Positions 14,547 to 64,000 of a DNA stretch of 64,000 bases are shown here, piece after piece. The position numbers and the translations under genes are program-made. The DNA is from Novosphingobium piscinae. Its GTDB lineage: Bacteria > Pseudomonadota > Alphaproteobacteria > Sphingomonadales > Sphingomonadaceae. The notes beneath the pieces are model-generated. The model ran no database searches, was not told where the DNA came from, and saw nothing but the letters and a program-made list of their open reading frames with translations. The stretch lies in the NCBI RefSeq assembly GCF_014230355.1, contig NZ_JACLAX010000002.1, positions 1-64,000 on the forward strand, in the 5' to 3' direction. Within the stretch, counting starts at the first letter, position 1. Each line of letters opens with the position of its first letter.

Positions 14547-14612
14547 CCGTTCGTGTCGAGCGCCGTCGAGACACGCCGCGCCGGGCCTCTCGACTGCGCT
14601 CGAGGCGAACGG
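14547..14612. repeat. 66-bp palindromic element, copy A
   Basis: It begins CCGTTCGTGTCGAGCG and ends CTCGAGGCGAACGG, with internal GTCGAGACACG and CTCTCGACT arms that can fold into a cruciform. A copy of identical length lies at 56395-56460 between hyuA and hyuB. Confidence 0.8.
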
Positions 14613-49679: not shown

Positions 49680-49756
49680 GCGCCCATAGCTCAGCTGGAT
49701 AGAGCGCGAGACTTCTAATCTTGAGGCCGCAGGTTCGACTCCTGCTGGGCGCGCCA
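49680..49756 (+). tRNA. tRNA-Arg (anticodon TCT)
   Basis: A 77-nt cloverleaf. Acceptor GCGCCCA/TGGGCGC, D arm GCTC...GAGC, anticodon stem CGAGA/TCTTG with loop CTTCTAA, T arm GCAGG-TTCGACT-CCTGC, and an encoded CCA. Anticodon TCT reads AGA. Confidence 0.96.
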
Positions 49757-49941: not shown

Positions 49942-52491
49942 TCAGAACTTGTAGGCCAGCTCCGCGCCGACGGTGCGGCGGGCGCCGGGGGAAATGAACG
50001 ATCCGCCGAACTCGATCGCCGGGATCACCTCGGCGAGGAACTTGCGGTTGAACAGGTTCCGCGCGAAGCCGGTCACCGTCACGTTGCCCATTTCGAGGCT
50101 GGCCCGCAGGTCGGCCACGGCGAAGGCATCGCGCCGCGACAGCGCGTAGTTGGCGTTGCCGGTGGCTGGCGGGAAGGCCGACAGCTGCGAGATCGGCAGC
50201 AGCCCGGAGAAGATCGTCGGGCGGATCTGGTTCTGCACGGTGCTGAACCAGGTGGGGCCAGTGATCCGGTAATCGCCGCGCAGCACGAACTTGCCGAGGC
50301 CATCGAAATCGTGCGTGACCTCGGTGCCGAAGTTGATGGTGTAGTCCGCGGTGTAGGGCGACTTGTTGCCGACGGTGTAGGGGCGCGAGCCGTTCTTCTT
50401 GATCTCGCTCTCGGTCACGTTGCCCGAACCGAACACCCGCCAGCCGGGCACGATCTTGACGTTGACGCTCAGCTCGGCGCCGGTGATGTCGACCCGGTCG
50501 ATGTTCGAGACCACGCGCAGCAGGCCGAAGCTGCCGACGAAGAACTCGAAGAACTGCATGTCGGTGACGCGGGTGTAGTAGCCGGCGAGGTCGAAGGTGA
50601 CACGGTCGTCGAGCAGGCTGCCCTTGAAGCCCACTTCGAAGGCGCTCGACTTCTCGCGGCGGTACTGGTCGGTGATGCTGACCCCGGCGTTGATCGTGCC
50701 GGGGGTGACGCCGTTGTTGAAGCTGGCGTTGACCACGGCCGAGGAGCCCTGGTTGTTGAACCCGCCCGACTTGAAGCCGATCCCCCAGTTCGCATAGAGA
50801 TTGAGGCCCTCGGTCGGCTTCCACGCCAGGGTGACCTTGGGCTCAAGCAGCGAGAAGGTCTTCTGCTGCGGGCGCAGCGGCCCGAACGCCTGACCGGGGT
50901 TGATCGGGCCGCCGGTGAACGGATCGGTCGCGGTGGGAACCAGCGAGCTGGTCTTGCGATCCTCCGAATCGTAGCGCAGCGCGAACCCGGCGTTGAGCTG
51001 GTCGTTCGGCTTGTACTCGACCGAGCCGAAGCCGGCGAAGACGTTCGTGTTGAACTTGTCGGCCAGCAGCAGCGAGGTGGGGTTGGTCGAGGTGGGGGCG
51101 TTGTAGAGCTGCTTGATCACGCCCTGGCCGAGGTCGGCGCCGAGGCTGACCCCGGTGGTGCGGTCGATGTGCAGGAAATAGCCGCCGAGCTGCCAGCTGA
51201 CCGGGCCGGTACCGTTGGACACCAGGCGCAGCTCGCCGCTGACGTCCTTCTGTTTGCGCAACTGGTACTGGATGCCGTCGCAGGTGGTCGGGCTGTAGGG
51301 GCCGAAGGTCGAGCCGTTGGTCGGCGCGAACAGGAACGGCACGGGCAGGGCGCCGATGAAGCCCGGCTGGTTGACCGCATAGCCGGTGAGCGCTGCGGTC
51401 GAGGCGAAGCACTGGTTGACCGCCGCCTGGCCGGCCGGATTGCTGGCCGAGATGTAGCGCGCGAAATCAGCCGAGGTGCCGTCCGCGACAAGATCCTGGT
51501 TGATGTTCGAGTAGAGCACCCAGCCGATCAGCTTGGCCTTGCCGAGATCGTGCTCGACCTTGAGCGAGATGTCGAAACTCGTCTGGTCGTTGGTCGGGCG
51601 GATGTTGTTGTAGAAGTTGAACGGGTGCTTGTTGACGTCCTCGTAGAAGGCCGGGTTCACGGCGGCGAAGTTGGGCAGGGCAAAGGCCGCATTGAACGGC
51701 AGCGAGGCACCGTGGAACTCGGCGTAGCGGGCCTTGAAGTCGATCTTCGTGTTGGGGCCGACATCGGCCATGATCCGCCCGTCGACCGCCCAGCTGCGGT
51801 GATCGTCGACCACGGCGGCATTGTTCAGGAACTTGTTGCGGAAGAACCCGTCGGACCGGTCGTACATGCCCGAGACGACGAAGCCGGCGGTTTCGCCGAG
51901 CGGGCCGGCGAGGTTCGCCCGGCCGATCCAGGTGTTGTTGTTGGCATAGGCCAGCGCCGCGCTGCCGGAGAGCTGCTCGGTCGGCTTGAGGGTCTGCACC
52001 GCGATCGCGCCCGCGGCAGCGTTGCGGCCGTAGATCGCGCCCTGCGGTCCCTTGAGGATTTCCACCTGGCTGAGCGTGCCCTGGGCCTGGTTGAGCTGGG
52101 CGGTGTTGGTCTTGAGGATGCCGTCGACGACCAGCGCGACCGAGCTTTCCGCGTCGCGGGCCCCGTTCATGCCGCGAATGTTGATCTGGGTGTCGCCGGC
52201 CTCGGCCGTGCCGGTGACGATCGTCACGCCAGGGGTCAGCTTGGTGAAGTCCTCGGCCTTGGTCGAGCCGGTCCGGGTCAGCGCGGTGGCGGTCAGCACC
52301 GCCACCGAGGCCGGCACGTCCTGCAGCCGCTCGGTCTGGCGGCGGGCCGTGACGATGATCTCCTCGCCTTCCCCGCCGGCGGCATCCTGCGCCAGGGCGG
52401 GGGTGGCGGCAAGCGCGCCGGCCAGGATCGAGGCGGATAGCAGCCACCGGGCAGCCGGACGGCGGACTTGGTCAAGACCAATCTTGCTCAT
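49942..52491 (-). CDS. TonB-dependent receptor of the HyuAB catabolic island
   Basis: An 849-residue outer-membrane receptor. The signal peptide ends at TPALAQ, the TonB-box region is EEIIVTARRQTERLQDVPASV, and the plug has QINIRGMNGARDAESSVALV and VEILKGPQGAIYGRNAAAGA. The barrel ends in VGAELAYKF. It is divergent from the GntR gene across a 140-bp region with a palindrome, so the receptor probably imports the substrate of the downstream pathway under the same control. Confidence 0.93.
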   Translation of the reverse strand: MSKIGLDQVRRPAARWLLSASILAGALAATPALAQDAAGGEGEEIIVTARRQTERLQDVPASVAVLTATALTRTGSTKAEDFTKLTPGVTIVTGTAEAGDTQINIRGMNGARDAESSVALVVDGILKTNTAQLNQAQGTLSQVEILKGPQGAIYGRNAAAGAIAVQTLKPTEQLSGSAALAYANNNTWIGRANLAGPLGETAGFVVSGMYDRSDGFFRNKFLNNAAVVDDHRSWAVDGRIMADVGPNTKIDFKARYAEFHGASLPFNAAFALPNFAAVNPAFYEDVNKHPFNFYNNIRPTNDQTSFDISLKVEHDLGKAKLIGWVLYSNINQDLVADGTSADFARYISASNPAGQAAVNQCFASTAALTGYAVNQPGFIGALPVPFLFAPTNGSTFGPYSPTTCDGIQYQLRKQKDVSGELRLVSNGTGPVSWQLGGYFLHIDRTTGVSLGADLGQGVIKQLYNAPTSTNPTSLLLADKFNTNVFAGFGSVEYKPNDQLNAGFALRYDSEDRKTSSLVPTATDPFTGGPINPGQAFGPLRPQQKTFSLLEPKVTLAWKPTEGLNLYANWGIGFKSGGFNNQGSSAVVNASFNNGVTPGTINAGVSITDQYRREKSSAFEVGFKGSLLDDRVTFDLAGYYTRVTDMQFFEFFVGSFGLLRVVSNIDRVDITGAELSVNVKIVPGWRVFGSGNVTESEIKKNGSRPYTVGNKSPYTADYTINFGTEVTHDFDGLGKFVLRGDYRITGPTWFSTVQNQIRPTIFSGLLPISQLSAFPPATGNANYALSRRDAFAVADLRASLEMGNVTVTGFARNLFNRKFLAEVIPAIEFGGSFISPGARRTVGAELAYKF

Positions 52492-52591
52492 GATGTCACT
52501 CCCTGTTGCACGCAGGCGCCGCGATTCCGGTGCTGCCCAACGCTTCCCCACGGCCGCATCCCCCATGCGGCGTCTTGCAACATGAGGGGTA

Positions 52592-52601
52592 TTGTATACA
52601 A
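52592..52601. promoter_or_regulatory. probable GntR/FCD operator
   Basis: TTGTATACAA is a perfect 10-bp palindrome in AT-rich sequence, 30 bases before the gntR ATG and 100 bases upstream of the divergent receptor. FadR-subfamily regulators bind TNGT-N-ACNA-type palindromes. A half-match (TTGTATCCAG) occurs at about 53306, near the end of the regulator gene. Confidence 0.6.
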
Positions 52602-52631
52602 AGAGGCCGCGTCAAGCATTTTGAGGGTAGC

Positions 52632-53390
52632 ATGTCCCGCGCCTCCGACCGCGCCTACACCATGATCCGCGGGCTGATCCTGTCGGGCGAGCTCGCCCCC
52701 GGGGCGCAGCTCGGGGAAGAGGCCCTGGCCGAGTTGTGCGATGTCTCGCGCACGCCGATCCGCGACGCCTTGCGCCGCCTTGAGGCGGACCTCCTGATCC
52801 GCCGCACCGGCACCCAGCGCAGCTTCGTGGCCGACTGGTCGCTGGCCGACGTGGAGGATGCCTTCGAGCTGCGCGGCATGCTCGAGGCCCATGCCGCACT
52901 GCGCGCCTGCCAGCGCATGGACGACGAGGCGCTGGCCCGCCTGCGCCGCTGCAATGCGCGGATTCGCCGGGCTATCGAGCGGGCCGTTCCGGACGTGTCC
53001 GGGTTCATGAATGCCAACCGGGAGTTTCACGGCGTGATCCTCGAGCAGGCCCGCTCGCGGCGGCTGACTGCCCTTTTGGGCACGTTGGTGGAGCAGCCGG
53101 TGGTGCGCCGCACGGCGGAACAGTACAGCACGGCGCAGCTCAGCCAGTCATGGCGCGAGCACGACGAGCTGATTGCTGCGTTCGAGCGCCGCGACGGCGT
53201 CTGGGCCCAGGCCGTGATGCTGGGGCACATCCGTCGCGCGTTTCATGCCTATGCCGATGCGCACAAGCGGCAGGCGCCTGACGGTGCCGGTGACGTGTCG
53301 GAAAATTGTATCCAGAATGGTGAGGTCGCGGGGAGTGGTTCCCCGCCGGCCGATGGCCGCCCGCAGGCGGCGATGGCAGCGGAGGCATAG
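52632..53390 (+). CDS. GntR-family (FCD domain) transcriptional regulator
   Basis: A 252-residue regulator. The N-terminal winged helix reads AYTMIRGLILSGELAPGAQL, EEALAELCDVSRTPIRDALRRLE, with the FCD ligand domain following (FELRGMLEAHAALRAC, NREFHGVILEQ, HDELIAAFERRD). FCD regulators bind small acids or their CoA-path intermediates, often through a metal. Its location at the head of the operon and opposite the receptor suggests control of both. The stop overlaps the GTG/ATG start of the lyase gene. Confidence 0.93.
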   Translation: MSRASDRAYTMIRGLILSGELAPGAQLGEEALAELCDVSRTPIRDALRRLEADLLIRRTGTQRSFVADWSLADVEDAFELRGMLEAHAALRACQRMDDEALARLRRCNARIRRAIERAVPDVSGFMNANREFHGVILEQARSRRLTALLGTLVEQPVVRRTAEQYSTAQLSQSWREHDELIAAFERRDGVWAQAVMLGHIRRAFHAYADAHKRQAPDGAGDVSENCIQNGEVAGSGSPPADGRPQAAMAAEA

Positions 53391-53392
53391 TG

Positions 53393-54325
53393 ATGGCTGG
53401 CGACCCCCCGGTCCCGGAGCGGATCGAGTTCGTCGAGGTCGGGCCGCGTGACGGTCTGCAGAACGAGAAGGTGCTGATTTCCACCGAGAGCAAGCTGGCC
53501 CTGGTGGCGCGGGCGATCGCGGCGGGAGCCCGGCGGATCGAGGTGACGAGCTTCGTCAATCCGCGCCGGGTGCCGCAGATGGCCGATGCCGAGGCCGTCT
53601 GCGCCGGCCTGCCCGAGCGGCCCGACGTGACCTATATCGGCCTCGTCATGAACGCGCGCGGCGCCGAACGCGCCCTGGCCACCGGACGGGTCGACCAGCT
53701 CGGTGCGGTCTGTGTCTCGACCGATGCCTTCGCCATGGCCAACCAGGGCCAGACCAGCGCGGAATCGGCGGCGGCGGCCATGGAGATCGTCGCCATGGCC
53801 CAGGCCGCCGGGCGCAGCGGCCAGATCACGATCGGTGCGGCCTTTGGCTGCCCGTTCTCGGGCGAGGTCGCCGAAGCCGGCGTGATCGCCCTGGCGCAGC
53901 AGCTGGCGGCGGCCCGACCGGCCGAGATCGCGCTGGCCGACACGATCGGCTGCGGCAATCCGGCCCAGGTCGCGCGGCTGGTCGCCGGGGTGCGCGCGGC
54001 CGCGCCCGGCGTGCCGGTGCGGGTCCATTTCCACAACACCCGCGGCACCGGCCTCGCCAACGTCTGGGCCGCGGTCCAGGCCGGGGCGAGCGTGGTCGAC
54101 GCTTCGATCGGCGGCCTGGGCGGGTGCCCCTTCGCCCCGGGCGCGGCGGGCAACGTGGCCAGCGAGGACGTGGTCTACATGCTCGAGCGCGCCGGAGTGG
54201 CGACCGGCATCGACCTCGCGGAGATCATCGCCGCCAGCCAGTGGCTCAGCGGCATCATGGGCCGAACCTTGCCGGGCATGGCGGCGCAGGCGCCGCTGTT
54301 CCCGCAGACTATCGAAGGAGCTTGA
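53393..54325 (+). CDS. hydroxymethylglutaryl-CoA lyase family protein
   Basis: A 310-residue DRE-TIM aldolase-type lyase. The metal/active-site motif GPRDGLQNE is close to the N-terminus (IEFVEVGPRDGL). HFHNTRGTGLAN carries metal ligands, and catalytic Cys245 is in GGLGGCPFAPGAAGN. In characterised members it splits HMG-CoA into acetoacetate and acetyl-CoA; several relatives cleave other 3-hydroxy acyl-CoAs. It is the first structural gene of the island and starts where the regulator ends. Confidence 0.92.
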   Translation: MAGDPPVPERIEFVEVGPRDGLQNEKVLISTESKLALVARAIAAGARRIEVTSFVNPRRVPQMADAEAVCAGLPERPDVTYIGLVMNARGAERALATGRVDQLGAVCVSTDAFAMANQGQTSAESAAAAMEIVAMAQAAGRSGQITIGAAFGCPFSGEVAEAGVIALAQQLAAARPAEIALADTIGCGNPAQVARLVAGVRAAAPGVPVRVHFHNTRGTGLANVWAAVQAGASVVDASIGGLGGCPFAPGAAGNVASEDVVYMLERAGVATGIDLAEIIAASQWLSGIMGRTLPGMAAQAPLFPQTIEGA

Positions 54326-54329
54326 GCGG

Positions 54330-56378
54330 ATGGGCTATCGTCTGGGCGTCGATGTGGGCGGGACGTTTACCGACCTGCTGCTGTTCGACACGGCAAGCGG
54401 GGCATTCTGGCGGCACAAGACGCCGTCCACCCCGCACGATTCGTCCGAGGGCATCCTCAACGGGGTGACCGCGATCTGCGACAAGGCCGGGGTCGAGGCC
54501 AAGGACATCGAGTTCTTCCTCCACGGCACGACCGTGGCGACCAACGCCGTGCTCGAGGGCAAGGGCGCGCGGGTCGGGCTGGTCACCACCGAGGGCTATC
54601 GTCACATCATGCAGATCGCCCGCAGCTTCGTGCCGGGCGGCCTCGCTGGCTGGATCATCTGGCCCAAGCCGACCCCGCTCGCCGCGCTCGAGGACACGGT
54701 CACGATCAAGGGCCGGATGAGCGCGGAGGGCGCCGAGATCCGCCCGATCGACGATGATGACATCCGCACCGCGCTCGGCTGCCTCAAGGGGCAGGGCGTC
54801 GAGGCCGTGACCGTCTCGCTGATCAATGCCTATGCCAATGGCGCGCACGAGCAGCGCGTGGGCGCGCTGGCGGCCGAGATCCTCCCCGGGGTGCCGGTCT
54901 CGCTCAGCCACGAGGTCCTGCCCGAGATGCAGGAGTACGAACGCACGCTGACCACGGTGGCCAATGCCGCGGTCCGCCCGGTGGTGGGCAAGTATGTCTC
55001 CAACCTGCGCAGCCGGCTGGCCGCGGCGGGCATGGCCGGCAATCTCTCGCTGCTGCGCTCCGACGGCGGGCTGATGTCGGCCCACAAGGCCGAGGAGCAG
55101 CCGGTCAACATTCTCATGTCCGGGCCAGCGGGCGGCGTGACCGGGGCGCTATGGGTGGCGCGCAATGCCGGGCTCAAGAACATCCTCACGCTCGACGTCG
55201 GCGGGACCTCCACCGACGTCGCGCTGATCGAGAACCTCGAGCCGCGCCGCCAGCGCGAGACCGAGGTGGGCCACCTCAAGGTCCGCGCCTCGGCGCTCGA
55301 CGTGAAGACCGTGGGCGCCGGCGGTGGCTCAATCGCCTATGTGCCGGAACTGACCAAGGCGCTGCGCGTCGGGCCGCAGTCGGCCGGTGCGGTGCCGGGG
55401 CCGGTGGCCTATGGCAAGGGCGGCACCCTGCCGACCGTGACCGACGCCAACGTGGTGCTGGGCTACCTGCCCGAGAACCTGCTGGGCGGCACCTTCCAGC
55501 TCGACCGCGAGGGGGCGAAGCGGGCGGTGCAGACCATCGCCGATGCCCTGGGCATCGACCTGATGGCCGCGGCGCGCGGGATCATCGACATCGTCAACGA
55601 GAACATGTTCGGCGCGCTGCGGATGATCTCGGTCCAGCAGGGCTACGATCCGCGCGACTTCGCGCTGATGGGCTTCGGCGGGGCGGGGCCGCTCCACGTC
55701 AATGCCGTGGCGCGGCTGATGGGCTCGTGGCCCGCGGTCTCGCCGGTTTCGCCGGGCGTGCTCTGCGCGCTGGGCGATGCCACCACCCGCATGCGCACCG
55801 AAACCGCGCGCAGCTTCTCGCGGCTGGCCGGCAGCGCCACGGCCGAGGAGTTGATCGGCATTCTCGACGAAATGGCCGCGCAGACCCGCGCCGACCTGAT
55901 CGCCGATGGTGTGCCCGAGGCCGAGATCGCGACCACCTTCGAGATCGACGTGCGCTATGCCGGGCAGGCCTTCGAGGTGCCGCTGACGATCACCGCCGAC
56001 GTGCTGCGGGCCGACGGGATTGCCGGGATCCTCGCCCGGTTCGACGCCGAGCACCACCGCCTGTTCACCTTCAACATGGATACCCCGCACGAGATCGTGA
56101 ACCTGCGCGCCGTGGCCATGGGCCGCGCGCTCGACCTGCCAGCGGCCGAGCTGCCCAAGGGCGACGGCAATCCGGTGGCGGCGAAGATGCGCGACCATGT
56201 CCTGTGGATGGACGGGCGCGAACAGGCCGCAGTGATCTACGACCGTGCCAAGCTGCGCCAGGGCGATGTGATCCCCGGGCCGGCGATCGTCTGCGAGATG
56301 GATTCGACCACCCTGATCGAAAGCGGCTGCGTCGCCACGGTCGATGCGGTCGGCAACATCCTGATCAATCTCAAGTGA
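54330..56378 (+). CDS. hyuA: hydantoinase/oxoprolinase family subunit A (ATP-dependent)
   Basis: A 682-residue ATP-binding subunit with the ASKHA-type start LGVDVGGTFTDLLLFD and the HyuA/OxoprolinaseA domains (HGTTVATNAVLEGKGARVG, SHEVLPEMQEYERT, LTLDVGGTSTDVALIE, GFGGAGPLHVNAVA). With HyuB it couples ATP hydrolysis either to ring opening of hydantoins, oxoproline or lactams or, in the acetone and acetophenone carboxylase branch, to carboxylation of ketones. It starts 4 bp after the lyase stop. Confidence 0.94.
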   Translation: MGYRLGVDVGGTFTDLLLFDTASGAFWRHKTPSTPHDSSEGILNGVTAICDKAGVEAKDIEFFLHGTTVATNAVLEGKGARVGLVTTEGYRHIMQIARSFVPGGLAGWIIWPKPTPLAALEDTVTIKGRMSAEGAEIRPIDDDDIRTALGCLKGQGVEAVTVSLINAYANGAHEQRVGALAAEILPGVPVSLSHEVLPEMQEYERTLTTVANAAVRPVVGKYVSNLRSRLAAAGMAGNLSLLRSDGGLMSAHKAEEQPVNILMSGPAGGVTGALWVARNAGLKNILTLDVGGTSTDVALIENLEPRRQRETEVGHLKVRASALDVKTVGAGGGSIAYVPELTKALRVGPQSAGAVPGPVAYGKGGTLPTVTDANVVLGYLPENLLGGTFQLDREGAKRAVQTIADALGIDLMAAARGIIDIVNENMFGALRMISVQQGYDPRDFALMGFGGAGPLHVNAVARLMGSWPAVSPVSPGVLCALGDATTRMRTETARSFSRLAGSATAEELIGILDEMAAQTRADLIADGVPEAEIATTFEIDVRYAGQAFEVPLTITADVLRADGIAGILARFDAEHHRLFTFNMDTPHEIVNLRAVAMGRALDLPAAELPKGDGNPVAAKMRDHVLWMDGREQAAVIYDRAKLRQGDVIPGPAIVCEMDSTTLIESGCVATVDAVGNILINLK

Positions 56379-56394
56379 CCCATTCCTTCCTCCT

Positions 56395-56460
56395 CCGTTC
56401 GTGTCGAGCGAAGTCGAGACACGTCGCGCGGCGTCTCTCGACTTCGCTCGAGACGAACGG
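56395..56460. repeat. 66-bp palindromic element, copy B, between hyuA and hyuB
   Basis: Same length and layout as the element at 14547-14612 (ends CCGTTCG / CGAACGG). It fills most of the 112-bp gap between two subunit genes that are normally close together. A hairpin here could reduce hyuB mRNA or alter subunit ratio. Confidence 0.8.
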
Positions 56461-56490
56461 GGTGAGGGCTATCTGGCAAGGAACGCGTTG

Positions 56491-58377
56491 ATGCCTGCTA
56501 CCATCGTCGAAACCAACCACACCCCCTTCGCGAAGATCGCGATCGACCCGGTCACGCTCGACATCATCGAGAACGCGCTGCGCAATGCTCGCATCGAGAT
56601 GGACGCCACCCTGGTGCGCACCGCGATGTCGCCCGGCATCCGCGAGCAGGGCGACGCCTTCCCGCTGATCGCCGACCACTCCGGCAAGATGATCGTCGGC
56701 CAGTTCGGCAGCTTCATCGACGGCTTCCTCCGCGGCTACAGCGGCACGCTCGAGGACGGGGACATGATCTTCCTGTCCGATCCCTATTCGTGCGAGGGCG
56801 CGGTGAGCCATGCCAACGACTGGCTGGTGCTCTACCCGGTGTTCAAGGACGGCCGGTTGCTCGCCTACACCGCGATGTTCGGCCACATGAGCGACATCGG
56901 CGGCAGCGTGGTCGGCTCGATGCCGATCAAGGCGCGCTCGATCTTCGAGGAAGGGGTGCGCATCCCGCCGGTGAAGATCTGGAAGAAGGGCGAGTACAAC
57001 GACGAGGTGATCCGCGTGATCATGCACCAGGTGCGCAAGCCCGACTGGTGCCAGGCCGATCTCAACGCGATCATCGCCTCGTGCCGGGTCGCCGCGCGCC
57101 GCGTGATCGAGATGGCCGACCGCTTCGGCGACGATGTCTATGTCTCGGCCACGCAGGAGCTGCTGGCGCGCAACCACCGCGCGATGCAGGCCCTGATCGG
57201 CATGGCGATCGCCGAGGAGCCGGTCAGCTTCGAGGACTATATCTGCGATGATGGCGTGGGGCAGGGACCCTACCGGATCAAGTGCACGATGTGGCGCGAG
57301 AACGGCCGCGTGGTGCTCGATTTCGCCGGTACCGATCCGCAGAGCAGCGCCTCGATCAATTTCTATCTCAATGAAAACATGTTCAAGATGTTCTTCGGCA
57401 TCTACATGATCATGGTCTTCGATCCGCAGATCCTGTTCAACGACGGGTTCTATGACCTGATCGACGTGCGCATTCCCGAAGGCTCGCTGCTCAAGCCGAA
57501 GTTCCCCGCGGCCCTGTCGGGGCGGACCCACGCGCTGGGGCGGATCTTCGACATCCTTGGCGGGCTGCTGGGGCAGAAGACCCCCGAATTCCTCAACGCC
57601 GCCGGCTTCTCGTCGAGCCCGCACCTGTTCTATTCGGGCAACGATACCCGCCCGGGCAAGGGTGGCGAATGGTTCCAGCTGTTCCAGATCGGCTTCGGCG
57701 GGATTCCCGGCCGGCCGATGGGCGACGGGCCTGACGGGCACTCGCTCTGGCCGGGCTTCACCAACGTGCCCAACGAGTTCCTCGAGCGCTACTTCCCGAT
57801 GATCATCGAGCGCTATGAATGCGAGCCCGACAGCGGCGGCGCCGGGCTGCATCGCGGCGGGAACGGGATCCGCATGACCTACCGCTTCCTGGCGGACGGG
57901 ACGATCTCGATCCACGACGATCGCTGGTTCGTCCCGCCCTGGGGGGTCAACGGCGGCGAGCCGGGCAAGCGTGCGCGCAAGATCATCGAGAAGCCCGACG
58001 GCAGCCAGGTCATCGTCGGCAACAAGGTCGAGGAACTGGCCGTCTCGGCGGGCGATCAGCTGCACTTCATCACCTGGGGCGGTGGCGGCTGGGGTGATCC
58101 GCTCGAGCGCGACCCGGCGCTGGTCGGCAAGGAGATCGTCCAGGGCCTGATCACCGCCGAAGGTGCGCGCGAGTACGGTGTGGTCGCCAATGCCGGCGGC
58201 ACGGTCGACCTCGCCGCGACCGCTGCGCTGCGGGCCGAGCTGCGCGCCGGACGCGGGGCGTTGCCGCTGTTCAACTTCGGCCCCGGCATCGATGCGCTGC
58301 GCGCCGGCTGCCTGGCCGAGACCGGATTGCCCGCGCCGGTCCAGCCGGTCTGGCCGTTGGCCGTGGCGGCGGAATAG
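56491..58377 (+). CDS. hyuB: hydantoinase/oxoprolinase family subunit B
   Basis: A 628-residue HyuB-type subunit. FAKIAIDPVTLDIIENALRNA is the expected start, MSPGIREQGDAFPLI, ADLNAIIASCRVAARRV and GAGLHRGGNGI belong to the family. The ATG at 56491 follows AAGGA at 8 nt; an open frame continues upstream through the palindrome but the resulting peptide is repeat-derived, so it was not included. It forms the catalytic pair with HyuA. Confidence 0.94.
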   Translation: MPATIVETNHTPFAKIAIDPVTLDIIENALRNARIEMDATLVRTAMSPGIREQGDAFPLIADHSGKMIVGQFGSFIDGFLRGYSGTLEDGDMIFLSDPYSCEGAVSHANDWLVLYPVFKDGRLLAYTAMFGHMSDIGGSVVGSMPIKARSIFEEGVRIPPVKIWKKGEYNDEVIRVIMHQVRKPDWCQADLNAIIASCRVAARRVIEMADRFGDDVYVSATQELLARNHRAMQALIGMAIAEEPVSFEDYICDDGVGQGPYRIKCTMWRENGRVVLDFAGTDPQSSASINFYLNENMFKMFFGIYMIMVFDPQILFNDGFYDLIDVRIPEGSLLKPKFPAALSGRTHALGRIFDILGGLLGQKTPEFLNAAGFSSSPHLFYSGNDTRPGKGGEWFQLFQIGFGGIPGRPMGDGPDGHSLWPGFTNVPNEFLERYFPMIIERYECEPDSGGAGLHRGGNGIRMTYRFLADGTISIHDDRWFVPPWGVNGGEPGKRARKIIEKPDGSQVIVGNKVEELAVSAGDQLHFITWGGGGWGDPLERDPALVGKEIVQGLITAEGAREYGVVANAGGTVDLAATAALRAELRAGRGALPLFNFGPGIDALRAGCLAETGLPAPVQPVWPLAVAAE

Positions 58378-58389
58378 GAGCGGCAAGCG

Positions 58390-59574
58390 GTGAGCGGGGC
58401 ACTGCGCGGACTGCGCGTGATCGAGATGGGCCAGCTGCTGGCGGGACCGTTCTGCGGCCAGCTGCTGGGCGACATGGGCGCCGATGTGATCAAGGTCGAA
58501 CCGCCGGGCGCGGGCGATCCGATGCGCCAATGGGGCCAGGGCAGCGAGAAGGTGCAGTGGGAGGTCATCGCGCGCAACAAGCGCTCGGTTTCGGCCAACC
58601 TGCGCGTGCCCGAAGGCCAGGCGCTGGTGCGCCGGCTGATCGCCCATGCCGATATCGTGATCGAGAACTTCAAGCCGGGCACGCTGGAGAAGTGGGGCAT
58701 GGCCCCGGTCACGCTGCTGGCCGCGCATCCCGGCCTGATCATCGCGCGCATGTCAGGCTATGGCCAGACCGGCCCCTATTCGGACCGTGCCGGCTTCGGC
58801 GGGATCGGCGAGGCGATGGGCGGGTGGCGCTACATCGTCGGCGAACCCGACCGGCCGCCGAGCCGCATGGGTGTGTCGATCGGCGACACCCTGACCGCGA
58901 CCTACGGCTGTCTGGGCGTGCTGGCTGCCCTGCACCACAAGACCATGACCGGCGAGGGCCAGGTGATCGACGCCGCGCTGTATGAAAGCGTGCTGCAGGT
59001 GATGGAAGGGCTCGTGCCCGAGTACGACCGCATGGGGCTGATCCGCGAGCGCTCGGGGTCGATCCTGACCGGGATCGCGCCCTCCAATGTCTATGCCTGC
59101 AAGGACGGCGAATACATGATCGGGGCGAACAAGGATTCGCTGTGGAAGCGGCTCGCCGCCGCCATGGGCCGGCCCGAGCTGGGCGACGATCCGCGCTATG
59201 CCACGCACGTCGCGCGGGGCGAGAACCAGCTCGAGCTCGATGCGCTGATCAACGCCTGGACCCGTACCCTGACGGTCGAGGAGGTGGACGCGCTGATGAT
59301 CGCCCACTCGATCCCCGCAGGCCGGGTCTACCGCGCTCCCGACATGATCGCCGATCCGCACTTCCAGGCGCGCGAGGCGATCATCGAGGTCGAGACCGAG
59401 CGGTTCGGTCCGCTCAAGATGCAGGGAGCCTTCCCCAAGTTCTCGGCGACTCCGGGCGGGGTCCGGCGTCCGGCGCCGGCCCAGGTCGGGCAGCACAATG
59501 CCGAGATCTATGGCGAACTGCTCGGCATCGGGCCTGACGAGCTGGCGGCGATGGCCGCGGCCGGGGTGGTGTGA
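58390..59574 (+). CDS. class III CoA-transferase (CaiB/BaiF/Frc family)
   Basis: A 394-residue cytosolic CoA-transferase. It starts with GTG (GALRGLRVIEMGQLLAGPFC), contains the nucleotide-free CoA-binding stretch LGDMGADVIKVEPPGAGDPM, and the catalytic Asp166 is in SIGDTLTATYG. The family moves CoA between small carboxylates through an Asp-anhydride. In this operon it would activate the acid made by the HyuAB step, or one that the lyase then cleaves. It starts 12 bp after hyuB. Confidence 0.93.
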   Translation: MSGALRGLRVIEMGQLLAGPFCGQLLGDMGADVIKVEPPGAGDPMRQWGQGSEKVQWEVIARNKRSVSANLRVPEGQALVRRLIAHADIVIENFKPGTLEKWGMAPVTLLAAHPGLIIARMSGYGQTGPYSDRAGFGGIGEAMGGWRYIVGEPDRPPSRMGVSIGDTLTATYGCLGVLAALHHKTMTGEGQVIDAALYESVLQVMEGLVPEYDRMGLIRERSGSILTGIAPSNVYACKDGEYMIGANKDSLWKRLAAAMGRPELGDDPRYATHVARGENQLELDALINAWTRTLTVEEVDALMIAHSIPAGRVYRAPDMIADPHFQAREAIIEVETERFGPLKMQGAFPKFSATPGGVRRPAPAQVGQHNAEIYGELLGIGPDELAAMAAAGVV

Positions 59575-59585
59575 GCAGCGGGGCG

Positions 59586-60218
59586 ATGAGCGACGAGCTG
59601 ACCCAGAACTACGCGGGCGCCTTCGATGGCCACCTGCCGTTCGGCCGCAGGCCGGCGCTGCTGGTGATCGACCTGGTGCTGGCCTACACCACCCCCGGCT
59701 CGCCGCTCTATGCCGGACCGGGGATCGCGGACGTGATGGCCTGCACCGAGCGGCTGGTGGGCGCGGCCCGCGCCGCCGGCGTTCCGGTGATCTTCACCAA
59801 TGTGGAGTATACCCCCGGCGGCGCCGATGGCGGCGTGTTCTACCGCAAGGTACCGGCGCTGCGGCTGTTCGAGCGCGGTGCGCCGCTGGGGGCCTTTCCC
59901 CCCACGCTCGCGCCGCGCGACGGAGAGGTGGTGATCACCAAGCGCTACGCCTCGGCCTTCTTCGCCACCCCGCTCGCCGCGCTGCTGACCGCTCAGGGGA
60001 TCGACACGGTGCTGCTGGCCGGCGTCTCGACCAGCGGCTGCGTGCGCGCCAGCGCGCTCGATGCCTGTCAGCACGGATTCCTGCCCTTCGTGGTGCGCGA
60101 CGCCTGCGGCGATCGCCACCCCGCCCCGCACGAGGCCAACCTGTTCGACCTGCAGGCCAAATATGCCGAAGTGATCGGTGAAGCCCAGGCCCTGGCCCAC
60201 CTCGCTGCGCTGGGGTGA
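59586..60218 (+). CDS. isochorismatase-like cysteine hydrolase, N-carbamoylsarcosine-amidase type
   Basis: A 210-residue amidohydrolase with the Asp29-Lys119-Cys152 triad (ALLVIDLV, VITKRYAS, VSTSGCVRA). The FGRRPALLVIDLV start resembles N-carbamoylsarcosine amidase, which removes the carbamoyl group after hydantoin-ring opening. Two starts are possible: GTG at 59571, overlapping the previous stop (GTGA), and ATG at 59586 (chosen, as it fits family length). It is the last gene of the operon. Confidence 0.9.
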   Translation: MSDELTQNYAGAFDGHLPFGRRPALLVIDLVLAYTTPGSPLYAGPGIADVMACTERLVGAARAAGVPVIFTNVEYTPGGADGGVFYRKVPALRLFERGAPLGAFPPTLAPRDGEVVITKRYASAFFATPLAALLTAQGIDTVLLAGVSTSGCVRASALDACQHGFLPFVVRDACGDRHPAPHEANLFDLQAKYAEVIGEAQALAHLAALG

Positions 60219-60377: not shown

Positions 60378-61430
60378 ATGGAACAAGATGATGCCGCCTC
60401 GACCCGGACGTGGCTGATCGCTGCCGCTTTCTTCACAGCTCCACAAAATCAGTGGATTGATGATTTCGTGCCGGCACCGCGCCGGCATCGCTTTTCGAAG
60501 ATTCCCAGTCAGTCTGCCGAACTCAACTGGCATAATCGCAAGACCCGGTACTCCGGCTTGTCCCAGTGGGCCAGTCACTGGGAACATGGCAAACGGATCT
60601 TCGCGCAACTCGGTCGGCAGGATGGGATCATTACAGTCTTTCCCCCGCTGGCCTTGGTCGCCGCGGTTCGCAAACTGTTGTATCGCCGCAGGAATCCCCT
60701 TGTCGCCTACTGCTTCAACGTCGGGGCTGCGCCCGGGGTTTTGCGGCGCGTGATCGGACGGATCGCATTTCGGGCTTGCGACGCGATCGTGGTCCACTCC
60801 AGTGCTGAAATCACGCTGGTCAACAAGTGGTTCGCGGTTGACCCGGCACGCATCCACTTTCTGCCGTTGCAATGCGGCGTCCTGAAGCCGCGGCCCTCGG
60901 AACAGGGCGAGCCCTACGTCGTGGCAATGGGCTCTGCCAATCGCGACTATCCTGTGCTGATTGAGGCTGCGGCCCGCACCGGAATCCGTACCATTATCGT
61001 GGCGGCGCCGCGTATCCTTGAGGGGCTCAACCAACCGGATAACGTCGAGTTTCTGCATGGCTTGTCGATGGAAGATTGCCGGTCGTTGGTGGCAGGCGCA
61101 CGCTTCAGCGTCATTCCGCTGACGGATGGCGAAGCCTCGTCGGGACAGATTACCCTGGTCGAGGCCATGCGACTGGGCTGCCCGACCATCGCAACCTCGA
61201 CCATCGGGACGGTGGATTATGTGCGCGACGGTGCAACCGGGTTCCTCGTCCCCCCCGGTGACCCGGCTGTGTTGGCTGAAGCGATGCGCCGTCTATGGGA
61301 CGATGACGAGCTGCGAGAGGGTGTAGCCCAGCGGGCCCGCGCTTATGCCGAAGCCGAGTTGTCCGATGAAGCCGCCGGACGCCGTCTATCGGCTTTGCTC
61401 GACCGGTTGGTGGATCAGGAACGAGCCTGA
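60378..61430 (+). CDS. glycosyltransferase family 4-like protein
   Basis: A 350-residue GT-B glycosyltransferase. The N-terminal domain contains VAYCFNVGAAPGVLRRVIGR, and the nucleotide-sugar domain has VVAMGSANRDYPVLIEAAAR and the donor-site stretch SSGQITLVEAMRLGCPTIAT, GATGFLVPPGD. The donor and acceptor are unknown. GC content is noticeably lower than in neighbours. It starts at the ATG 60378 (GTG at 60366 also possible) and its last 16 bases overlap the convergent MFS gene. Confidence 0.85.
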   Translation: MEQDDAASTRTWLIAAAFFTAPQNQWIDDFVPAPRRHRFSKIPSQSAELNWHNRKTRYSGLSQWASHWEHGKRIFAQLGRQDGIITVFPPLALVAAVRKLLYRRRNPLVAYCFNVGAAPGVLRRVIGRIAFRACDAIVVHSSAEITLVNKWFAVDPARIHFLPLQCGVLKPRPSEQGEPYVVAMGSANRDYPVLIEAAARTGIRTIIVAAPRILEGLNQPDNVEFLHGLSMEDCRSLVAGARFSVIPLTDGEASSGQITLVEAMRLGCPTIATSTIGTVDYVRDGATGFLVPPGDPAVLAEAMRRLWDDDELREGVAQRARAYAEAELSDEAAGRRLSALLDRLVDQERA

Positions 61431-62959
61431 GGCCGAGATCCCGTTGCGGGTGCTGAAGCCTGCTGCCGGACCGATCCCGGCTGCTCCAGTCGCCAGGCTG
61501 TCAGAGCGGCGGCGGCCATGGTTGCCGCCGCGAAGGCGAAGGTCCAGATCGGTTCGGTGGGAAAGAACAGCCGCATGATCGTGCCCATCACCGTCGCGAC
61601 CAGCAGCTGGGGGATCACGATGAACACGTTGAACAGCCCCATGAACACGCCCAGCTTCTGTTGCGGCAGCGCGCCGGCCAGGATCGCGTAGGGCAGGGCG
61701 AGCAGCGCGGCCCAGGCGATGCCGATGCCCAGCTCGCAGGCGACAAGCCAGCGCGGATCGCGCACCACCAGATAGCCGGCGAACCCGGCCGCGCCGCAGA
61801 GCAGGGCGAGCCCGTGGGCCCGGGCCTTGCCGAGCCGGCTCGCCAGCAGCGGCACCACGGTGAGCGCGGCAAGCGCGGCCACGCCGTTGTAGACCGCGAA
61901 GAGCACATCGACCCAGTTGGCGGCGGTTTGGTAGGCGGGGCTGTCGGCGGTGGCCGCGCCGAACTGGTATTGCGCGACGACCGGGGTGGTGTTGATCCAC
62001 ATGATGAACATGGCCGACCAGCTGAGGAACTGCACCAGCGCAAGCCGCTTCATCAGTGGCGGCATCCCGGTGAGGTCGCCGACGATGCTGGTCAGGGCGC
62101 CGGCCGGATGGCCCGCCTTGACCCTGCGGATTGCTGCTGCGGTCAGCACCCCGTAGCCGGCGAGCAGGCCAGCGAGGAGATAGAGCTCCTGTTCGAGCCC
62201 GACTCCCCAGGTCAGTCCGGCGAGCGCGAGCCCACCGGTGATCCAGCCCAGCGGCTGGCCCAGGCCGCGCCGGGCGAGGTGCTCGGCGGTGGGCGGGGCG
62301 GCCGCGGCCGTCGCCGCGGCGAACCGTGCCATCTCCGCGGGCGTGTATTCGCGGGTGGTGAACAGGGTCCACAGGACCGAGGCGAGCAGGGCGGTGCCGC
62401 CGAACCAGAAGCTGATCCGGACCGTTTCGGGAATGGTCCCCACCGGCGCCGTGTTCGACACCCCGACAAGGTCGAGCAGCCAGGGAAACAGCGAGCCGAC
62501 CACCGCGCCAGCACCGATCAGACCGGTCTGGATGGCATAACCGGCGGTATGCTGGTGTGCGGGCAGCATATCGCCGACGAAGGCGCGGAACGGCTCCATC
62601 GCGGTGTTGAGGCTGGCGTCGAGCATCCACAACAGCAGCGCGGCCATCAGCAGGCCGCTGCTGTAGGGCATCAGCACCAGGGACAGCGCGGCCAGCACGG
62701 CCCCGGCCAGAAAGTAGGGCCGGCGCCGTCCGAGCCGGCCAAGCCAGGTGCGGTCCGAGAGGTGGCCGATCAGCGGCTGGACCAGCAGCCCGGTCAGCGG
62801 GGCGGCGATCCACAGTGCCGGCAGATCATCGATGCGCGAGCCCAGCGACTGGAAGATCCGGCTCATGTTGGCGTTCTGCAGGGCGAAGCCGATCTGGATC
62901 CCGAAGAAGCCGAAGCTGATGTTGCACAGCCCGCGCAGGCTCTGGGTGGGCTTGTCCAT
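61415..62959 (-). CDS. MFS transporter, GPH/sucrose-maltose type
   Basis: A 514-residue inner-membrane carrier with twelve predicted helices. The N-terminus has CNISFGFFGIQIGFALQNANMS, and loop 2-3 has HLSDRTWLGRLGRRRPYFLAG, the signature of the glycoside-pentoside-hexuronide and plant-sucrose-like carriers. IMWINTTPVVAQYQFG lies in the second half. It probably imports a disaccharide; the adjacent LacI gene on the same strand suggests sugar induction. The start at 62959 gives MDKPTQSLRGLCN. Confidence 0.9.
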   Translation of the reverse strand: MDKPTQSLRGLCNISFGFFGIQIGFALQNANMSRIFQSLGSRIDDLPALWIAAPLTGLLVQPLIGHLSDRTWLGRLGRRRPYFLAGAVLAALSLVLMPYSSGLLMAALLLWMLDASLNTAMEPFRAFVGDMLPAHQHTAGYAIQTGLIGAGAVVGSLFPWLLDLVGVSNTAPVGTIPETVRISFWFGGTALLASVLWTLFTTREYTPAEMARFAAATAAAAPPTAEHLARRGLGQPLGWITGGLALAGLTWGVGLEQELYLLAGLLAGYGVLTAAAIRRVKAGHPAGALTSIVGDLTGMPPLMKRLALVQFLSWSAMFIMWINTTPVVAQYQFGAATADSPAYQTAANWVDVLFAVYNGVAALAALTVVPLLASRLGKARAHGLALLCGAAGFAGYLVVRDPRWLVACELGIGIAWAALLALPYAILAGALPQQKLGVFMGLFNVFIVIPQLLVATVMGTIMRLFFPTEPIWTFAFAAATMAAAALTAWRLEQPGSVRQQASAPATGSRPQARS

Positions 62960-63100
62960 GCGACTCCTCTCAACCGGGTGCGGTGCGCGTTCCGGCGCCG
63001 CTGCCGGCCACCTCGCTGGCATGCGGCGCGGCGCGCGGCAACATGCATACGAATACCCTTGGCGCGCCGGACAGCTGGGCGGCCCGCTGCCGAACCGGGT
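62960..63100. other. promoter region of the MFS gene
   Basis: It contains a less GC-rich ATGCATACGAATACC stretch that could hold a LacI-type operator, but no clear palindrome is seen. Confidence 0.3.
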
Positions 63101-64000
63101 TCAGCCCGCGGTGCTGCCGCGCACGACCAGCCGCGCGGGGATCACCGTCGGTGGCGGTTCGCGTCCTTCGATGCGGGCCACCACGGTATCGACCAGCAGG
63201 TTGCCGGCGGCCTGCATGTCCTGGACCAGGGTGGTCAGCGGCGGGTTGGTGTGCCGCGCGGCGAGGATATCGTCGAAGCCCACCACGGCCACGTCGCCGG
63301 GCACGGTCAGGCCCGCCTCGGTGAGCGCGCGCATCGCGCCGATCGCGATCAGATCGCTCGCGGCGAACAGCCCGTCGAAGGCCGCGCCGGCGTCGAGCAG
63401 CGAGCGGGCTGCCGCATAGCCCGATTCCTCGAAGCTCACCGCATTGCGGGTGAGGGCCGCATCATGGGCCACGCCGGCCTCGGCGAGTGCCGCCAAGAGT
63501 CCATGGTAACGCATTGCAAATTCTGGATAATGTTCGTCCGGCTGGCCGATGAAGGCAATCCGTCGCCGGCCCAGCGCCAGCAGGTGTTCGCCGGCCAGGC
63601 GGCCGCCGCCGGCGTTGTCCGAGCCGACCGTGCCACCGATTCCGTCATCCTGGACCGAGCCCCACCGGACGAACTGGGTGCCCTGCCGCACCAGCTGGTC
63701 GAGCCGGCTCTCGTACAGGGTGTAATCGCCATAGCCGAGCAGGATCAGGCCATCGGCGCGGTGGCTGTCCTGGTAGCGGACGTGCCAGTCGTCCTCCATC
63801 CGCTGGAACGAGATCAGCAGATCGTAACCCTGCGCGGCGCAGCGCGCGGTGATCGAGGCGAGCATCGCGAGATAGAACGGATTGATCTTGGTATCGTCGG
63901 GGGTCTGCTCCTCGAAGAACAGCAGGGCGATCGTGTTCGAACGCTGCGAGCGCAGCGACGAGGCGTTCTTGTCGACCGAATAGTGCAGGTCCCGCGCAAT
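63101..64000 (-). CDS. LacI-family transcriptional regulator (5' end outside window)
   Basis: The window holds the last 299 codons; the HTH and start lie to the right. The hinge (ARDLHYSVDKNASSLRSQRS) leads into NTIALLFFEEQTPDD, the start of the periplasmic-binding-like core. GLFAASDLIAIGAMRALTEA and VAVVGFDDILAARHTNPPLTT are typical ligand-domain segments. It likely controls the neighbouring MFS gene in response to a sugar. Confidence 0.92.
   Translation of the reverse strand: MARDLHYSVDKNASSLRSQRSNTIALLFFEEQTPDDTKINPFYLAMLASITARCAAQGYDLLISFQRMEDDWHVRYQDSHRADGLILLGYGDYTLYESRLDQLVRQGTQFVRWGSVQDDGIGGTVGSDNAGGGRLAGEHLLALGRRRIAFIGQPDEHYPEFAMRYHGLLAALAEAGVAHDAALTRNAVSFEESGYAAARSLLDAGAAFDGLFAASDLIAIGAMRALTEAGLTVPGDVAVVGFDDILAARHTNPPLTTLVQDMQAAGNLLVDTVVARIEGREPPPTVIPARLVVRGSTAG

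Follow-up and report, generated by a model that had tools for sequence, protein, structure and literature searches.

Enzymes of the HyuAB type, paired with an amide hydrolase, remove the nitrogen of ring compounds, and their genes commonly carry an untested hydantoinase or oxoprolinase label. In creatinine breakdown, an adenosine triphosphate (ATP)-dependent opener of this type, N-methylhydantoin amidohydrolase, is followed by N-carbamoylsarcosine amidohydrolase, a cysteine hydrolase of the isochorismatase fold; to our knowledge, that pathway has no coenzyme A (CoA)-transferase and no 3-hydroxy-3-methylglutaryl-CoA (HMG-CoA) lyase step. The operon described here, from Novosphingobium piscinae, encodes relatives of all these enzymes side by side. 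It occupies positions 49942-60218 of the 64,000-nucleotide stretch that we analysed (the window; NCBI RefSeq assembly GCF_014230355.1, contig NZ_JACLAX010000002.1, positions 1 to 64,000), where a TonB receptor gene diverges from a regulator-led plus-strand run of five enzyme genes (Table 1). Domain searches and coordinates bear out the arrangement that a first-pass annotation had proposed from the letters, namely a receptor and a GntR/FCD regulator around a palindrome, then lyase, HyuA, HyuB, CoA-transferase and cysteine hydrolase. The creatinine enzymes are the best solved relatives of HyuA, HyuB and the cysteine hydrolase, although the last of these is optional in this operon.

Other described systems share single features with the locus. 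Two lactam openers, caprolactamase (CapAB) and the oxoprolinase OplAB, likewise have separate A and B subunits and are reported to spend ATP (PMC6061476 and PMC11033972, respectively). The caprolactam product, however, is an amino acid that is transaminated rather than loaded with CoA, and the HyuAB described here lies far under the CapAB cut-off of 1000 bits. Acetophenone carboxylase belongs to the same superfamily; it scores below the hydrolases, and carboxylation would leave the cysteine hydrolase without a place. For nicotinate use in Aspergillus (HxnM, HxnN), PMC9304392 describes a cyclic imide that is opened and whose amide is then hydrolysed to a hydroxy diacid. That route differs in using a PuuE-related imidase instead of HyuAB, and another amidase, and the excerpts of that paper mention neither a CoA-transferase nor a lyase.

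We conclude that the locus is a conserved, apparently locally controlled catabolic operon, a variant of the ATP-dependent lactam and hydantoin hydrolase pathways. The expectation that no described pathway has exactly this set went uncontradicted in open-access literature (full texts, titles and the beginnings of abstracts), which is weak evidence of absence, with subscription journals mostly outside the search. Our results tie one HyuAB subfamily, which extends beyond a single class of the phylum, to defined downstream enzymes, with other subfamilies as a control. This linkage yields a short list of candidate substrates and a possible biosensor, in the form of a regulator with one candidate operator in this genome.

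Conservation and linkage to one HyuAB subfamily

Counting the genome of origin, HyuA relatives were found at E <= 1e-150 in 74 of the 149 genus genomes, 54 of the 209 family genomes and 14 of the 398 phylum genomes, and at E <= 1e-190 in 29 of the 385 class genomes; the closest named HyuA, from N. aerophilum, is 96% identical. For the 80 best named loci by HyuA match (the close set), HyuA and HyuB were both present in all 80, the regulator in 73, the receptor in 70, the CoA-transferase in 70 and the lyase in 77 by profile (78 by tblastn). The lyase, HyuA, HyuB and CoA-transferase were complete in 69, and the 10 loci without a CoA-transferase and the three without a lyase all sit on contigs 3.4-14 kb long. 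The member of the set that varies is the cysteine hydrolase. It was found in 49 close loci, could not be assessed in 11, where the contig ends or the CoA-transferase is lacking, and was missing from 20 that offer more than 2 kb after the CoA-transferase.

To more distant relatives we applied a comparison with controls. The test set comprised 29 loci with a HyuA 52-70% identical to that of the window, made up of 10 distant places from the phylum survey and 19 of 34 class-survey places below 75% identity; the remaining 15 (48-58%) did not enter the set, and L126 (HyuA 81%) was left out. The control set comprised 20 loci of other HyuA subfamilies (28-37%), hand-picked from 42 matches in 60 genomes, several of them sharing one genome. 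Seven test and four control loci span less than 19 kb, and the test loci are not all independent, with a shared genome for L109/L115, L132/L140 and L141/L145 and a shared genus for L127/L128.

Three contrasts were large (one-sided Fisher tests throughout): a cysteine hydrolase lay nearby in 20 of 29 test loci and 1 of 20 controls (p 5e-6), a CoA-transferase in 18 and none (p 3e-6) and a lyase in 16 and 1 (p 2e-4), with all three together in 14 of the 29. Smaller contrasts were seen for LeuD (8/29 versus 0/20, p 0.0095), a PrpB-like lyase (7/29 versus 0/20, p 0.018), LeuC (8/29 versus 1/20, p 0.047 before correction, weak alone), MmgE/PrpD (4/29 versus 0/20, p 0.11) and CitE (1/29 versus 0/20). 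Because the test loci supplied the neighbour profiles, a bias in their favour, and some loci are related, we regard the small contrasts as suggestive only; the p values are uncorrected for several families. The gene set goes with one HyuAB subfamily and is kept together in relatives, not scattered.

At L111, L114 and L115, which belong to another class, the receptor, CoA-transferase, lyase, HyuA, HyuB, cysteine hydrolase, LeuC and LeuD stand side by side. Their transferase and lyase are 28-39% identical to those of the window, partly measured against second-locus copies (see below), so that one functional set is found here again, built from members of other subfamilies. In all nine relatives checked, the LeuC beside HyuAB is additional to another LeuC.

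The same genome carries a second HyuAB copy (81% and 79% identical) in a large cluster on contig C2, at about 50-103 kb (L084, L166, L167). Two of the three LeuC genes of the genome flank it at about 10 kb on each side. It is accompanied by another lyase (42%), another CoA-transferase (32%), a cysteine hydrolase (56%) and a distant receptor, and further by a PrpB-like lyase, an AMDase/EutA-family protein, two flavin adenine dinucleotide (FAD) monooxygenases, aldehyde dehydrogenases, and PuuE-like and MmgE-like proteins.

Some other neighbours recur, and for the PuuE-like, racemase-like, YrdC/Sua5-like, RutA-like and IorB families the counts come from searches seeded with single sequences. PuuE-like genes neighbour HyuAB at 6 of 12 further loci of the genus, 3 of 29 distant loci and none of the 80 close or 20 control loci, and the protein of L119 has PuuE allantoinase as its best solved match (115 bits). 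They matter because PMC9304392 relates the PuuE family to cyclic imide hydrolases. YrdC/Sua5-like genes occur near HyuAB in six of the 29 distant loci (L135, L137, L141, L142, L143, L144) and in none of the 20 control or 80 close loci; they are of interest because bicarbonate and carbamoyl phosphate are reported to affect the related OplAB (PMC11033972). A protein of about 412 amino acids is encoded near HyuAB at L126 (14585-15823), L109 (7547-8785) and L167 (17528-18799). The L126 copy, the one searched against families, has an S-adenosylmethionine-methyltransferase domain and, N-terminally, a stretch that matches no Pfam family.

A conserved palindrome and its presumed regulator

The regulator is of the GntR/FCD type, with both domains and a conserved palindrome, a putative operator, at the presumed promoters. 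This palindrome, TTGTATACAA, occurs once in the 3,775,046-base genome, as the single window copy, and its reversed control pattern does not occur. Among the 73 sphingomonad loci with a regulator match, the best site within the stretch searched was exact in 53 and had one mismatch in 9, as against 0.07% and 0.75% of base shuffles. In a subgroup of ten loci (L006-L013, L016, L029) the regulator gene lies behind the receptor gene (at L013 it was not found), and all ten keep a TTGTATACAA site between receptor and lyase; the site thus stays with the receptor and lyase promoters. The FCD regulator is predicted to bind TTGTATACAA, and the operon to be inducible. The view of one locally controlled unit, taken from the outset, is supported by a palindrome both unique in the genome and conserved. 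Against the proposed regulon, the site is absent from 12 of the 28 loci listed, among which are the distant L106, L107, L110, L111, L114 and L115 as well as the second HyuAB locus of the same genome (L084, L166, L167).

Enzyme families and candidate substrates

HyuA and HyuB are adjacent and have the full Pfam domain sets of the ATP-dependent hydantoinase/oxoprolinase (HyuAB) superfamily. Both have N-methylhydantoinase as best solved relative (458 and 221 bits), and the best NCBIfam match of HyuA is caprolactamase alpha; the scores of 544 bits for HyuA and 211 bits for HyuB lie below the CapAB equivalog cut-offs of 1000 bits each. Carboxylases score lower: HyuA reaches 316 bits with the acetophenone carboxylase gamma model and 315 bits with the solved chain, and HyuB 112 and 116 bits, while the gamma, alpha and delta equivalog cut-offs (1500, 1250 and 1500 bits) compare with scores of 316, 184 and 112. 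The pair is nearer to hydrolases than to carboxylases, no equivalog cut-off being reached, and is a predicted ATP-dependent ring opener. Ring opening and carboxylation had at first been proposed as alternatives, and the second is weakened because both subunits score higher against hydrolases. In a carboxylase pathway, HyuAB would use ATP and bicarbonate to carboxylate a ketone, as the acetophenone and acetone carboxylases do, and the CoA-transferase would activate the product for cleavage. The shared superfamily and the gamma match are consistent with this, but a beta-keto acid calls for a thiolase rather than an HMG-CoA lyase and the cysteine hydrolase would have no role, and we consider such a pathway very unlikely.

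The cysteine hydrolase matches solved N-carbamoylsarcosine amidohydrolase 26st (157 bits), 3ot4 (149 bits) and 1nba (123 bits), the first two scoring close together; we take 3ot4, like 3uao, to be maleamate amidohydrolase. Asp34, Lys124 and Cys157 are common to all three structures, are conserved across an alignment of 85 rows (in 84, 83 and 84, respectively) and presumably form the catalytic triad of the isochorismatase fold. Scores against the NCBIfam equivalog models stay below the cut-offs for RutB (58 versus 378 bits) and biuret hydrolase (60 versus 370 bits).

Carbamoylsarcosine amidase is the best match in 67 of 80 scored rows (82 given). Together with the N-methylhydantoinase matches of HyuA and HyuB, this is what a hydantoin or creatinine type of pathway would predict, in which HyuAB would turn a substituted hydantoin into an N-carbamoyl acid, the cysteine hydrolase would remove the carbamoyl group, and the CoA-transferase and lyase would degrade the rest. 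Asp/Glu/hydantoin-racemase-like genes, near 18 of 80 close, 4 of 29 distant and 0 of 20 control loci, point the same way. The amino acid product would need deamination, however, and no recurrent deaminase or transaminase emerged from clustering and inspection by eye, with no dedicated search; the LeuCD and PrpB-like partners are at odds with such a pathway, and the cysteine hydrolase is absent from the 20 close loci with room for it. We think this pathway unlikely. The likeness to carbamoylsarcosine amidase, remarked on early, holds by sequence, whereas the N-methylhydantoin route drawn from it found no specific support.

A core without the cysteine hydrolase would be accounted for if HyuAB opened 3-hydroxy-oxindole-3-acetate derived from the auxin indoleacetate, the CoA-transferase and lyase then releasing acetyl-CoA. 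What speaks for it is the precedent of anaerobic indoleacetate degradation, which uses a hydantoinase-like enzyme and a CoA-transferase. No open-access paper joining the terms of this proposal was found, LeuCD and PrpB-like partners would have no role, and no anthranilate pathway genes were noticed near the loci, no dedicated search having been made; an oxindole substrate seems most improbable.

The lyase exceeds the cut-off of the HMG-CoA lyase subfamily PRK05692 (299 versus 246 bits), a match that does not settle the acyl group, and among solved proteins it is most like HMG-CoA lyases. For the CoA-transferase, the nearest NCBIfam model is succinate-glutarate CoA-transferase (266 bits, below the cut-off of 750), and the enzyme resembles solved succinate-hydroxymethylglutarate CoA-transferases. 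Such enzymes would suit a six-membered imide or lactam, of glutarimide or hydroxypyridine type, that yields a glutaconate-like or 3-hydroxy-3-methylglutarate-like acid for true HMG-CoA-type cleavage. FAD monooxygenase and molybdenum (Mo)-hydroxylase-like genes near some loci would also suit it, although the Mo-hydroxylase-like IorB says little, since 3 of 80 close loci, none of the 29 distant ones and 2 of 20 controls have it nearby. Against a six-membered ring, the substrates of PrpB-like and LeuCD enzymes in known families are 1,2-diacids, and here too we judge the chances to be low. Isonicotinate/citrazinate and homarine were considered and set aside, an open-access search on citrazinic acid and homarine having returned nothing relevant.

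In a subset of loci (L031, L057-L060, L066, L067, L078, L112, L130) the racemase-like gene is accompanied by one SnoaL-like gene or by two, in most cases in the stretch that separates receptor and regulator. Genes for RutA-like flavin monooxygenases lie near the operon in three of the 80 close loci (L014, 8008-9066; L036; L037, 1153-2217), directly 5' of the lyase at L014.

A proposed pathway

Tentatively, and at somewhat short of an even chance, we favour a pathway in which HyuAB opens a cyclic imide or lactam and the product loses its amide to become a carboxylic acid, receives CoA and is split, the likeliest ring being a cyclic imide of the succinimide/maleimide type. The TonB receptor would take up a small nitrogen ring compound used as food, and the FCD regulator would hold both promoters through TTGTATACAA until released by ligand binding, by analogy with its family. 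HyuAB would open the ring at the amide bond, spending ATP, and in most versions the cysteine hydrolase would remove the second nitrogen, amide or carbamoyl, to give a di- or tricarboxylic acid. An unsaturated acid could then be hydrated by a LeuCD-type enzyme, encoded beside the set in several relatives; the three LeuC genes of this genome lie elsewhere. The class III CoA-transferase would load CoA onto the acid, and the HMG-CoA-lyase-like enzyme would cleave the hydroxyacyl-CoA, yielding an oxo acid and a short acyl-CoA. A simple common intermediate would be the alkene 1,2-diacid from a five-membered cyclic imide, followed by a malate-type acid. The order of ring opening, nitrogen removal, CoA loading and C-C cleavage given in the first-pass annotation is plausible, its basis being family knowledge.

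Enzymes of the LeuCD and PrpD types hydrate alkene di- and tricarboxylates or form them by dehydration, and the HMGL, CitE and PrpB families split hydroxylated acids. Among the 29 test loci, 21 have a lyase of some kind (HMGL, PrpB-like or CitE) and 11 have LeuCD or MmgE. The partners found in relatives are consistent with a succinimide/maleimide-type ring; the creatinine-type and carboxylase readings fit less well. Several points weigh against such a ring. Eight of the 29 distant loci have none of the lyase types nearby; the partners expected of an imide-derived diacid are rare in the 80 close loci (LeuD 3, LeuC 1, MmgE 1, CitE 2), where PrpB-like and PuuE-like genes were not found at all; the contrasts for LeuC and MmgE/PrpD are weak; the cysteine hydrolase is missing from 20 close loci that have room for it and mostly resembles carbamoylsarcosine amidase; and the imidases we know of need no ATP.

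A more specific proposal, that the operon encodes the bacterial degradation of substituted maleimides (methyl-ethyl-maleimide, hematinic acid) from chlorophyll, heme or bilin breakdown, is in our estimate distinctly unlikely. HyuAB and the cysteine hydrolase would here give a methyl-substituted maleate to be hydrated by a LeuCD-type enzyme, and the CoA-transferase and lyase (PrpB-like in relatives) would release pyruvate together with an acyl-CoA of the side chain, which in the case of hematinic acid might be glutaryl-CoA. Maleimides fit because of the linked enzyme families and of a regulator with a PrpR_N domain beside the full set at L114, where this sigma-54 activator precedes the set. Work cited by PMC7318184 reports both maleimides and hematinic acid in senescent leaves and lake sediments, while that paper itself describes hematinic acid, not maleimides, in its own leaves; maleimides are also described as degradation products of bacteriochlorophylls c, d and e (PMC8669743). 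Should the ring be a maleimide, the operon would offer candidate genes for the bacterial end of pigment degradation in waters and sediments.

Window-like HyuA (at least 83% identity) occurs in 23 of 26 reaction-centre-bearing genus genomes and 23 of 123 others, whereas HyuA at 76-81% is unbiased (6/26 versus 30/123), the 83% split being the analyst's choice with partial matches counted, and not a split by gene content. In the lower-identity group (L116-L125, ten loci read), lyase and CoA-transferase lie beside HyuAB at L116, L118, L120 and L125. At the family level, HyuAB was found in 16 of 23 phototrophic genera and 18 of 73 others. A tree control with 30 genomes, picked to balance the classes and not randomly, gave 7 independent pairs with median p of 0.625 and 0.5, too few differing to reach 0.05. 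The link to phototrophy, strong in raw numbers, thus has no support from this control, and shared ancestry or habitat may explain it. The host genome has two reaction-centre genes of the Photo_RC family (contig C33, 272669-274332), and because of these the host is probably an aerobic anoxygenic phototroph. At L127 (388-5696) the set adjoins genes that resemble photosynthesis genes by eye, of which a family search confirmed the Mg-chelatase-type AAA protein only.

Operon layout and neighbouring features

Table 1. Features of the operon, in window coordinates
Feature	Position	Strand	Basis
TonB-dependent outer membrane receptor, 849 aa	49942-52491	minus	Pfam Plug and TonB barrel, above cut-off
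Perfect palindrome TTGTATACAA, putative operator for the FCD regulator	52592-52601		Sequence and conservation
GntR/FCD transcriptional regulator	52632-53390	plus	Pfam GntR 56.9 bits, FCD 77.4 bits, both over cut-off
HMG-CoA-lyase-like enzyme	GTG 53390 (or ATG 53393) to 54325	plus	NCBIfam PRK05692 299 bits
HyuA	54330-56378	plus	Pfam Hydant_A_N, Hydantoinase_A, Hydant_A_C over cut-off
Inverted repeat, 66 bp	56395-56460		HyuA-HyuB gap
HyuB	ATG 56491 to 58377	plus	Pfam Hydantoinase_B 487 bits
Class III CoA-transferase	58390-59574	plus	Pfam CoA_transf_3 412 bits
Isochorismatase-fold cysteine hydrolase (amide or carbamoyl hydrolase)	59571-60218	plus	Pfam Isochorismatase 137 bits

Start codons were chosen by judgement for the receptor (ATG 52491 over the open reading frame start at 52566) and the regulator (ATG 52632; the open reading frame list begins at TTG 52506). 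For HyuB we took ATG 56491; the listed start, 56401, falls within the inverted repeat. Regulator and lyase overlap by 1 nt or lie 2 nt apart; the next three gaps measure 4, 112 and 12 nt, and the CoA-transferase and cysteine hydrolase genes overlap by 4 nt. The sole wide gap, between HyuA and HyuB, measures about 18 nt in the nearest orthologue (L004). The arms of the inverted repeat in this gap are 91% complementary; its core, TCGACTTCGCTCGA, has exact matches within the window in these two arms only, with a one-mismatch copy at 14590, and the repeat may be mobile.

Against solved structures the receptor gave general receptor matches only. Rfam at gathering scores matched only a tRNA (49680-49753), a sigma-70 promoter scan returned 0 sites and terminator-like sites numbered 2 versus 2.6 expected. 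Downstream of the operon (61415-63865, and L169) lie genes for an MFS transporter and a LacI-type regulator, followed past the window end by receptor and sugar-hydrolase genes as judged by eye; this region is probably an unrelated sugar locus.

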